DNA of 64,000 nt from the NCBI GenBank assembly GCA_001799845.1, contig MGUG01000054.1, forward strand, positions 127,393-191,392, in the 5' to 3' direction. Both the position numbers and the translations under genes were made by a program. Within the stretch, counting starts at the first letter, position 1. Every line of letters begins with the position of its first letter. Source of the DNA: Elusimicrobia bacterium GWC2_64_44. GTDB lineage: Bacteria > Elusimicrobiota > Elusimicrobia > Elusimicrobiales > UBA9959. The notes under the pieces were generated by a model. That model saw nothing but the letters and a program-made list of their open reading frames with translations. It did no database searches and had not been told where the DNA came from. Shown one piece after another: positions 25,793 to 52,124 of the stretch.

Positions 25793-25828
25793 GAATCCAC
25801 GGGTAGGTCGCTGAAACTCGGCGGCCTA

Positions 25829-25973
25829 CCGTGGGGACGGGCCCGTCAAAACCCGGGCTCGGTGCATTGTCGCTTCGCTCCACACGCACACAGTGCTCGG
25901 CCCTCGCCACTCAGCCCTCGCGCTTACGCAAGCTCGGGCTTCCGTGACGGTTTTGCCGGACCCATCCCCACGG
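25829..25973 (-). repeat. Structured repeat element A (145 bp) with 25-nt terminal inverted arms
   Basis: CCGTGGGGACGGGCCCGTCAAAACC / GGTTTTGCCGGACCCATCCCCACGG pair at 22/25; core GCCCGAGCTTGCGTAAGCGCGAGGGC on minus. Confidence 0.8.
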
Positions 25974-26022
25974 TCTCCGCCAGATATATCATTACTGTGA
26001 GATGCTGAACAGCCGGAGGGGT

Positions 26023-26224
26023 GGCAGGGGTGCTGCCCCCCGAACCCTTTGTGGAAGGGGGGGCCCCGCACTGCGGATTTGAATCTGGAAATACTGTTTA
26101 GATAGGCGCTATTTCTTATGAAAGCGGGAAAGCCTTAGCAACTTATTGCACGAAAGCCGCAGTGTGGGGGGAAACCGACGCAAGGGTTTCCATCTTCCAG
26201 GGTTCGGGGGGTAGTACCCCTGCC
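26023..26224. repeat. Large nested inverted repeat enclosing an 80-nt AT-richer segment
   Basis: 26023-26048 pairs with 26199-26224 (24/26); 26064-26076 pairs with 26157-26169 (12/13). Confidence 0.85.
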
Positions 26225-35689: not shown

Positions 35690-36789
35690 GCGTTCTCCCT
35701 GCCGGCGCCGTCCACTATGCGCATGAGCTTTATCCACCCGTCGCAGAGGAACACGATCTTGACCGAGAGGATCAGCACCCCGCCGCCCAGCAGGTCCTGC
35801 CAGCCCGGGGGAAAGCGGGCGAAATCCTTATAGGTGGTGATCAGCGGCAGGCCCCCGCGGGCCTGCCTGGCCGCGGCCAGGTCCCGCTCGGTGTAGGCGT
35901 AGTGGTCGGGGTAGCGCCAGATCTGCTTCAGGTCTATCTTCATCTTCTTCAGCACGGCTTCGAAGGAGTCCGGGTCGCCGATGCCGGAAAGGGCGACGGC
36001 CCCGCGGCCTTTCAGGGAGCCGAGGTCCACCTGGGAGGCGGTCGCCGGGTCGATGAAGGCTTCCGGGGCGTGCATGCTCTCGATGATCTCGGCGGCCGGG
36101 GCGCAGCGCTTGATGTCGGCGCGCAGCGCGTCCACGGCGTCCTGCGAAACCTGCTCGCAGTGGGTGATGATCACGGCTTTGGCGCGGGCCAGGCCGGCGG
36201 CCGGTTCGCGCAGGTTGCCGGCGGGCAGGACCCGGTCGGCGGTGAAAGGGGCGGTGGCGTTGACCAGGGCGATATCGGCGTCGCGCTGCACGGCGAAGTG
36301 CTGGAAGCCGTCGTCCATCAGCAGGATGTCGGCGCCCAGTTCCGTGACGGCGGCCATGCCGGAGGCGAAGCGGTCCGACGAGACCACCACCGGCACGCCG
36401 GCGGGCTCCAGCAGGCGGTAAAGCATCAAGGCCTCGTCGCCGGCCTCGTCGAGCGTGGCCGGGCGGCCCTTGGCGAGGATGGTGACGGCGGCGTGGGGGG
36501 CGCGCCGCTTGTAGCCGCGCAGCAGGACGGCCGGCCGGCGGCCGGAGCGCGCCAGCTCCATGGCGGCGGTGACCACGGTGGAGGTCTTGCCGGTGCCGCC
36601 GGAGGAGATGTTGCCGAAGCAGATCACGGGCACGGGCAGGCGCCGGCTGCGCAGCACGCCCTTGCGGTAGAGGAGCCTCCGCGCGGCAATGCCGCCGGAA
36701 TACGCGAAGGATAAGAGCCCCAGCAGCAGGCGGCCGGCGGCGCCACGGCGCAGCGCGTCGCGTGTCTTTTCGGGGGAGAAAGCGGTCAT
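35686..36789 (-). CDS. lpxK: Tetraacyldisaccharide 4'-kinase
   Basis: 'PVPVICFGNISSGGTGKTSTVV', 'ILLMDDGFQHFAVQRDADIALVNA'. Confidence 0.95.
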   Translation of the reverse strand: MTAFSPEKTRDALRRGAAGRLLLGLLSFAYSGGIAARRLLYRKGVLRSRRLPVPVICFGNISSGGTGKTSTVVTAAMELARSGRRPAVLLRGYKRRAPHAAVTILAKGRPATLDEAGDEALMLYRLLEPAGVPVVVSSDRFASGMAAVTELGADILLMDDGFQHFAVQRDADIALVNATAPFTADRVLPAGNLREPAAGLARAKAVIITHCEQVSQDAVDALRADIKRCAPAAEIIESMHAPEAFIDPATASQVDLGSLKGRGAVALSGIGDPDSFEAVLKKMKIDLKQIWRYPDHYAYTERDLAAARQARGGLPLITTYKDFARFPPGWQDLLGGGVLILSVKIVFLCDGWIKLMRIVDGAGRENA

Positions 36790-37733
36790 GCCGGCACCTT
36801 CTTCAGGTTTTCCACGTGGGCGCTGAGCTGATCCCAGGCGGTCTCGAAAGGCATCTCTGCCAGCTCGCCCTGCACCCAGGCGTGCTTCGGGCCGGGCGGG
36901 CTCCAGCTCAGCGGGGAATTCTGCGGGGCGTAAATGGTGAAGGTCGGCGCACCCTGGCTGACGGCCACATGCATTGGGCCGGAGCTGGTGCCGCAGTGCA
37001 GCGCGGCGCGCTTTTGCAGGGCGGCGAGGTCGAGCAGGTCGAAGTCCGGGCAGAGCAGGTGTCGCCCGGCGGCCGCGCCCATGGCGGCTTTCACATAGTC
37101 CAGTTCGCCGGGGCCCCAGAGGAAGACCACGCGCGCGCCGAAGTCCTTGGCCAGGCCGTCGGCCAGGCGGGCGAAATTTTCCGGGGCCCAGCGGCGGTGG
37201 TCCCGCGGGCTGGTGATGTCGAGGGTGACGGTGAAGTCGCCGGGGCGCACGCCCGAAGCGGCCAGGAAGGCGTCGGCCCTGGCGGCGTTCTCGGGGCCGA
37301 AGTTCAGCTCCAGCTCGTGCCCGGCGTGGGGGATGCCCAGCGGCTCGAGCAGCTGCAGGCGGTCGTAAGCGGTGTAGCCTGCGCCGGGCTTTTTCTCGGG
37401 CAGGATGTTGTGCCAGAGGCGGCCCGCGCCGAACTTGAAAGCGAGGCGCTTTCCGGCGCCGGAGAACAGGGCGTAGAAGCCGGAGGAAGTGGAGCGCATG
37501 TAGTCGAAGGTGATGTCGATGCCGGCGGCGCGGATGGCGCGCAGGGGGCCGTCTTCGCGGCAGAAGACCCCGTCGAGGCGGGGATTGCCGCGCAGCACTT
37601 TGAGCGAGGGTCGGCGCGTCAGGAAATAGAGGCGGGAGTCGGGCATGGCCGTCTTCAGCGCGCGCAGCAGCGGCGTCGTCAGGAGCACGTCGCCAATGCC
37701 TTTGTAAACGATGACAAGTATTCCAGGTCCCAT
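36786..37733 (-). CDS. GT9 heptosyltransferase-like
   Basis: 'ILVIVYKGIGDVLLTTPLLRALK', 'HCGTSSGPMHVAVSQGAPT'. Confidence 0.88.
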   Translation of the reverse strand: MGPGILVIVYKGIGDVLLTTPLLRALKTAMPDSRLYFLTRRPSLKVLRGNPRLDGVFCREDGPLRAIRAAGIDITFDYMRSTSSGFYALFSGAGKRLAFKFGAGRLWHNILPEKKPGAGYTAYDRLQLLEPLGIPHAGHELELNFGPENAARADAFLAASGVRPGDFTVTLDITSPRDHRRWAPENFARLADGLAKDFGARVVFLWGPGELDYVKAAMGAAAGRHLLCPDFDLLDLAALQKRAALHCGTSSGPMHVAVSQGAPTFTIYAPQNSPLSWSPPGPKHAWVQGELAEMPFETAWDQLSAHVENLKKVPA

Positions 37734-37744
37734 GTTGTGTGTCA

Positions 37745-37937
37745 GGCGAGTCCTGTCTCGCCGCGAGCGATTTTAGTGCGCAGGGCCAAGGTCCGAAGCG
37801 GACCGCCTATCATTAGGGCGGCGGCGGAGACTGTCCGAGGAGCGCACTGTGTGCGCGACGAGTTCTCCGCCGGCGGAGGACCGCAGGCCCTCTTCTGCCG
37901 CGCACGCTTATGAGCGAGCGGTGAGACAGGACTCGCC
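37745..37937 (+). repeat. Structured repeat element D (193 bp)
   Basis: Terminal arms GGCGAGTCCTGTCTCGCCGC / GCGGTGAGACAGGACTCGCC; core shared in inverted orientation with 50350-50542. Confidence 0.9.
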
Positions 37938-50349: not shown

Positions 50350-50542
50350 CGCTCGACCGGGCCCTCCGCTCGCTCATAAGCGGCCGTGGCAGAAGAGGGC
50401 CTGCGGTCCTCCGCCGGCAAAGAACTCGTCGCGCACACAGTGCGCTCCTCAAACATTCTTTGCCGCCGCCTTAATGATAGGCGGTCCGCTCCGGACCTTG
50501 GCCCTACGGCCTAAAATCGCTCACGGAGGGCCCGGTCGAGCG
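50350..50542 (-). repeat. Structured repeat element E (193 bp), inverted relative to element D
   Basis: Perfect arms CGCTCGACCGGGCCCTCCG / CGGAGGGCCCGGTCGAGCG; core homologous to element D. Confidence 0.9.
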
Positions 50543-51725: not shown

Positions 51726-51760
51726 CTACCGTGCGTGCAGGAACGCCAGCGTGTTGGGCC

Positions 51761-51876
51761 GGCGAGGGTATGCCTTCTCCGGGTACGCTCGCCACACCGT
51801 GGCTCGCTCTGTCAGTCGGCCCTCGCGCTATGCAAGCTCGGGCCGACCGAGGCCCCTGCGAAGGCATACCCTCACC
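51761..51876 (-). repeat. Structured repeat element B (116 bp)
   Basis: Arms GGCGAGGGTATGCCTTC / GAAGGCATACCCTCACC; core CCCGAGCTTGCATAGCGCGAGGG on minus. Confidence 0.82.
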
Positions 51877-51923
51877 GTCCCTCAGTCCGTGTCAGTACTA
51901 CTGCAAGCGAGAAACCAGCGGAG

Positions 51924-52044
51924 ACCGCAGGGGGTAGGGTTAGCAAAACCCTCATGAGGCCCGAGCTTGCGTAAGCGCGAGGGCCGAATGCGGAGTGAGC
52001 GCACGGTGTGCGCGAACGCGTTTTGCGTTCCTACCCCCTGCGGT
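51924..52044 (+). repeat. Structured repeat element C (121 bp)
   Basis: Perfect arms ACCGCAGGGGGTAGG / CCTACCCCCTGCGGT; core CCCGAGCTTGCGTAAGCGCGAGGGC on plus. Confidence 0.85.
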
Positions 52045-52124
52045 AGGCCGCCAACCACGAGCGCGCCCAGGGGCCCCTACCCGGCTGGCCCCCGACTGGG
52101 CATCTCGCGGTCCTCTCTGTAAAT

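Follow-up and report, generated by a model that had tools for sequence, protein, structure and literature searches.

A dispersed repeat family of one Elusimicrobiota lineage combines a shared folded core with site-specific paired arms

Elements D and E of the window (the whole stretch of 64,000 nucleotides that was analyzed) belong to a dispersed, multi-copy repeat family that is restricted to one lineage of Elusimicrobiota. In each element, a single defined strand folds, and every site has retained this fold for a long time. Within one genome, the cores of the copies evolve in concert, whereas the arms that enclose them are site-specific. With moderate confidence, we favor the reading that D and E are REPIN-like, non-autonomous dispersed structured repeats that act as a folded single strand and have a conserved core and variable ends.

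Both elements are 193 bp long and lie in opposite orientation, in agreement with the original prediction. D occupies positions 37745–37937 and folds on the + strand (-122.5 kcal/mol, z = -8.15 relative to dinucleotide shuffles). E occupies positions 50350–50542 and folds on the - strand (-124.6 kcal/mol, z = -9.78). The self-complementary terminal arms were present as predicted, and the inner helices were found at the predicted positions. In D, the 20-bp left arm (37745–37764, +) pairs with the right arm (37918–37937, +). In E, the left arm (50523–50542, -), which is 5' on the folded strand, pairs with the right arm (50350–50369, -). The arm sequence of D is peculiar to the D site and is common to the orthologous copy in genome G029. 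According to gene names read from translations, D is flanked by a glycosyltransferase gene (36786–37733, -) and the next gene on the same strand, and E is located directly 3' of tgt, ahead of yajC-secD-secF.

Six further helices were placed on the + strand of D. Helix 2 (37776–37781 with 37900–37905) is followed by helix 3 (37782–37787 with 37886–37891) and by the long-range helix 4 (37790–37794 with 37878–37882). Helix 5 is a hairpin (37803–37821, CCGCCT-ATCATTA-GGGCGG), in which TATCATTA is near-invariant. Helix 6 (37823–37830 with 37864–37871) is followed by helix 7 (37842–37847 with 37851–37856), which lies within the most conserved block (37832–37866). This block consists of TGTYTGAG, a stem, GCACTGTGTGC, a stem and CGAGTTC, and forms an internal loop and the apical hairpin. 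Across the family, the near-invariant blocks were TATCATTA, GAGCG, TGTYTGAG, GCACTGTGTGC and CGAGTTC.

The helices are supported by covariation. In an alignment of 54 sequences from many genera, the seven helices were paired in 89.6% of cells, compared to 75.4% after shuffling. In the same sequences, the covariation score of the inner helices (A1) was 0.371, compared to 0.136 when shuffled and at most 0.111 when slid, and both-sided changes occurred in 29 of 44 pairs. Pairing reached 96.3% in helix 2 (double changes in 5/6 pairs), 83.3% in helix 3 and 90.3% in helix 6. For the 20-bp arms, examined in 46 full-length copies from the genus, pairing was 95.8% (61.6% shuffled) with double changes at all 20 pairs, and the covariation score was 0.864 (0.207 shuffled). 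None of 500 shuffles reached the observed covariation, either for the inner helices or for the arms. One of the hairpins proposed at the outset had to be abandoned: the local GGTCCG hairpin GGTCCGnAGCGGACC is not a conserved pairing, as it was paired in 77% of cells (54 sequences) and its outer pairs break down in other genera. It is displaced by the competing long-range helix 4, which was paired in 96.7% of cells and showed double changes in 5/5 pairs. The TATCATTA hairpin is real. The proposed GCGCAC-TGT-GTGCGC hairpin is real in its GCAC-TGT-GTGC part, but its outer two pairs are not general. Covariation in dispersed repeats is by itself no proof of a non-coding RNA.

D and E are two of at least 18 matches in the window genome (a 3.09 Mb draft), 17 of which are full length; four copies of this genome carry a 23-nt insertion in an inner helix. 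A DNA search found copies in at least 25 of the 59 genomes of the GTDB family. These copy counts are lower bounds, because the best candidates per genome were scored and several copies lie at contig ends. The covariance-model search of the phylum retrieved copies in 32 of 345 genomes, all of one family and from 6 of 101 genera. Among ~85,000 species genomes, the exact pattern GAGNNNNGCACTGTGTGCNNNNCGAGTTC matched 67 stretches, nearly all of which are titled Elusimicrobia, Elusimicrobiales or Elusimicrobiota, with a few titled only 'bacterium'. Viral carriage was rejected, as the sole match on a viral contig sits in a coding frame and is due to chance. The comparison with Rfam that had been proposed for the original prediction did not refute the family: no Rfam family reached its gathering score for D or E, and the best weak scores were those of Acido-1 (15.1 bits, 50 needed) and sbcD (12.5 bits, 40 needed). 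No ends of a known MITE or IS, which would also have spoken against the prediction, were recognized.

The arm mismatches differ between the two strands. On the element strand, G.U mismatches outnumbered A.C mismatches by 67 to 10 (p = 1.7e-11). In a conservative count, where each site and position was counted once and the outer and core-proximal pairs were excluded, there were 15 G.U and 4 A.C mismatches (p = 0.019), and 17 G.A and 0 C.U mismatches. Taken together, G.U and G.A exceeded A.C and C.U by 32 to 4 (p = 1.9e-6). These strand-specific mismatches indicate that one strand folds and that this fold is kept. The ratio of G.U to A.C was 21:3 where both neighboring genes are antisense to the element and 16:2 where both are sense. 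Since the bias is the same in both settings, it belongs to the strand of the element itself rather than to the host mRNA. The copies were not consistently oriented relative to local GC skew or the coding majority, and a replication-strand bias was therefore rejected as the cause of the G.U excess. In principle, the folded strand could mutate asymmetrically, and this, instead of selection, could cause the bias.

The same counts bear on a structure that acts in the mRNA of a neighboring gene, as a 3'-end stabilizer or an attenuator. By gene calls that are approximate (codon-usage model), the neighbors of 84 copies were oriented (-,-) in 38, (+,+) in 23, convergently in 18 and divergently in only 5 cases, and many copies start at most 30 bp past a stop codon. 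Both the scarcity in divergent intervals and the proximity to stop codons would fit a function in mRNA, but placement after a stop codon is also expected of any tolerated repeat. Antisense copies put the complementary strand into the mRNA, yet the G.U excess of the element strand stays, and the orientation of the element flips between species. A function at the mRNA level is contradicted by the strand bias of the antisense copies, and we consider it very unlikely.

The arms and the core have different histories. Of 18 positions, 16.2 matched between the left and right arms of the same copy, compared to 8.5 between the left arm of one copy and the right arms of others. Among 31 orthologous pairs, defined by both flanks, the arm identity was 0.71, compared to 0.50 between paralogues of the same genome; the corresponding core identities were 0.891 and 0.905. 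Because the core identity is no higher in orthologues than in paralogues, the cores are homogenized within a genome. Individual pairs illustrate this. The arms of L001 and L060 are almost identical, and their cores carry genome-specific variants. L002/L056 and L015/L054 have their arms in common, although one partner has a 216-nt core. The arm identity of orthologues was 0.75 for G000-G047 and 0.77 for G000-G029, and the fourfold-site identity in two genes examined was 0.75 and 0.69, respectively. The arms thus drift at approximately the pace of silent sites, yet they stay paired. The changes in orthologous arms comprised 71 double Watson-Crick changes, 22 changes involving G.U and 26 other mismatch changes. 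Intact copies persist at orthologous sites where the silent-site identity fell to 0.6–0.75.

Cores also change their orientation between retained arms. At about seven sites, 13 orthologous pairs whose two flanks both match carry the core in opposite orientations. The arms around such cores are homologous in L008/L059 (15/19 positions), L012/L080 (16/19) and L081/L086 (14 and 13/19), which shows that the core turned around while the arms stayed in place. Other such pairs, for example L001/L075, have different arms. Recombinase-driven invertible elements have conserved inverted repeats that a recombinase recognizes; the D/E cores do invert, but the arms of the D/E family share no common sequence. 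Two loci, L302 and L307 (G029:C67 and G042:C227), have the outer shell of the D/E family (family-1) around a different structured core (TGAGGCCCGGCGAAGAG...GGGCCGCAAGG), and look as if cores were interchangeable. A partial match, L300, is without the inner domain.

Inverted cores are also what would be expected if the elements had no function, with template switching keeping insertion-derived palindromes perfect and gene conversion keeping the cores alike. Template switching homogenizes the arms of inverted repeats and inverts their spacers (PMC8604942), and it can create and maintain hairpins (PMC8794818). Repair of this kind can yield paired changes in the absence of selection. In line with this explanation, the double changes in the arms are not confined to transitions, but their transversion excess does not discriminate, since G-C exchange is even stronger at silent sites. 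The signature of template switching in the form of clustered double changes was not seen: 12 were adjacent, compared to 10.5 expected (p = 0.33). A strand-specific mismatch bias is not what symmetric repair would be expected to produce, and orientation to replication is inconsistent. Moreover, copies have stayed intact at the diverged orthologous sites described above. On balance, the absence of function is unlikely.

The sites themselves bear on whether the arms are captured target palindromes, e.g., terminators, into which the element inserts. Arms that differ at each site and copies just past stop codons would be accounted for in this way. At the D site, G000 and G029 carry the element with the same arms and G026 carries it inverted; it is missing from G036, G042, G037 and G025. 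In several relatives, the E site consists of a short spacer with no palindrome. Insertion into palindromic targets was rejected, as the empty counterparts of both sites are without a palindrome, and no uninterrupted palindrome equal to the joined arms was seen in close relatives. Ordinary terminators adjoin several copies and are not inside them. In addition, the arms within a genome share recognizable ancestral sequence, most clearly in G025 and G037. The capture of target palindromes is hence scarcely credible. Separately, a recurrent intergenic repeat (CCCCAAAGTCGCGCGGGACC... / GGGGTGCTGCCCCCCGAACCCTT...) interrupts D/E-family copies; it was found at L304, at L310 and at positions 26020–26080 of the window.

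The original prediction had interpreted the pattern as selection on structure, in a non-coding RNA or a structured DNA element. A maintained structure is borne out by the covariation in 46–54 sequences and the strand-specific mismatches, but a non-coding RNA received no specific support. Such an RNA would be multi-copy and transcribed on the folded strand, with a protein-binding or regulatory role and the arms as a free basal stem. It would fit the conserved loops and covarying stems over 6 genera and the tolerance of G.U on one strand only, and the conserved asymmetric loop UGUYUGAG/CGAGUUC beside the G.A positions could be an RNA motif. However, the copy flanks showed no promoter- or terminator-like positional signal and no excess of T-runs or -10 motifs, and the 5' arm of D begins 12 bp from a start codon on the opposite strand. 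The 38 of 84 copies that are antisense to both neighboring genes, the inversion of cores between species and the lack of an Rfam match also speak against it. We regard a non-coding RNA as possible, if somewhat doubtful.

A second family of structured repeats in the window genome behaves similarly. Three related members lie in the window, at 25825–25990 (-), 51745–51885 (-) and 51920–52045 (+), and contain the hairpins CCGAGCTTGCGTAAGCGCGAGG and GCGCACGGTGTGCGC. With one member as the query, 49 matches were obtained in the genome, frequently arranged as head-to-head doublets. Canonical ends are common to some of these copies; in others, a nearly identical core is enclosed by self-complementary arms that are peculiar to the site. 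G.U mismatches numbered 25 and A.C mismatches 2, although copies with common ends are not independent. Since its arms and cores behave like those of D and E, the behavior of the D/E family is probably not unique in the window genome. At the D site of G027 (L163), a D/E-family copy is truncated by an element of this second family.

The D/E family yielded neither a transposase nor a target duplication nor a precise recent insertion; orthologous sites with and without the element have diverged too far for a target-site duplication to be delimited. RAYT transposases occur in 49 of the 59 genomes of the GTDB family, and because they are nearly ubiquitous, their co-occurrence with D/E repeats is uninformative. 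The RAYT units that were read out, including the three of the window genome, have palindromic ends other than those of D/E, and one unit lies 2.6 kb from a D/E-family copy. A RAYT linkage of the D/E family was rejected because these units carry their own ends. In the RAYT (Y1) units L280–L294, the palindromic ends match within a unit and differ between units (GGGGACAGTATACTC, GGGGACGTTCTTAACTATTGGA, AAAGGTGCCTGGCACC and others). The E site of G029 (L121) is occupied by another MITE-like hairpin (GGGGACGCTGCTTAGTTTTTGAGTTGTTTG...), whose ends equal those of RAYT unit L292 of the same genome.

We infer the active molecule and the function of the D/E family from these patterns. Folded single-stranded DNA is the more likely active molecule and is slightly preferred to RNA, because the strand specificity is the same whichever way the flanking genes run and no promoter was seen. 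Each copy consists of a basal stem of ~20 bp, the arms, which may have any pairing sequence, around a core of ~150 nt whose architecture is fixed and whose loops are invariant. In the favored reading of a REPIN-like repeat, the core would be the part recognized by an enzyme or another partner, and the basal stem would be required only as a stem. Copies may spread via strand-specific single-stranded DNA, in a HUH/REP-like mobilization. Ectopic gene conversion would then homogenize the cores, inverted-repeat recombination or template switching would invert them, and template switching may also supply the double changes in the arms. Besides the missing transposase, target duplication and recent insertion, the differing ends of the RAYT units and the possible mutational origin of the strand bias, further points speak against this reading: the internal-loop sequences, invariant across genera, resemble functional RNA, and old copies are intact in place, which is unusual for a purely mobile repeat.

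A further proposal, which we put forward tentatively and regard as rather improbable, is a new class of element whose conserved folded core of 150 nt is swapped and inverted among many resident, site-specific hairpin arms, with selection on the folding of one defined strand. If such modular shells with interchangeable structured cores exist, the shells of L302 and L307 and the second family would fall in the same class. For most small repeats of bacteria, conserved ends are the defining feature; in the D/E family the insides are conserved and the ends are free, yet at many orthologous sites in different species these ends are kept paired on one strand. The family is a natural test set for telling selection on folding from the repair of palindromes by template switching. 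It also points to a putative factor of Elusimicrobiota that recognizes the folded 150-nt core.

Among known systems, the structured RNAs of Rfam have covarying stems and conserved loops in common with the D/E family; small RNA genes have their own upstream promoter and downstream terminator, of which the flanks of the D/E copies gave no signal. By their general description (PMC2229807, PMC3049150), MITEs and repeats of the ERIC, BOX and RUP type are similar in being ~100–200 bp long, palindromic, intergenic and lineage-specific. Unlike MITEs, including those of DDE transposons with terminal inverted repeats common to the copies, D/E copies share no terminal inverted repeat, and their arms are complementary only within a copy. 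The D/E cores also evolve in concert and invert, unlike MITEs and the ERIC, BOX and RUP repeats. Inverted repeats shaped by template switching (PMC8604942, PMC8794818) show the same paired arm changes and inversion of the enclosed sequence, but the D/E family adds strand-specific mismatches, long-lived conserved 150-nt cores and unclustered double changes. REPINs have a hairpin with compensatory changes, conserved ends and a variable spacer (PMC3116915). With REPINs and the REP-RAYT system (PMC3116915, PMC8266576), the D/E family shares short, extragenic, multi-copy repeats that fold as a single strand and have no gene of their own. It differs in that no conserved REP is found inverted at both ends (8.5/18 matches between copies), no foot tag of the GTAG/CGTC type accompanies the arms, whose flanks carry no information beyond ~0.3 bit, and no cognate RAYT is flanked by the same repeats. 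With its variable ends and conserved 150-nt core, the D/E family reverses the REPIN arrangement.
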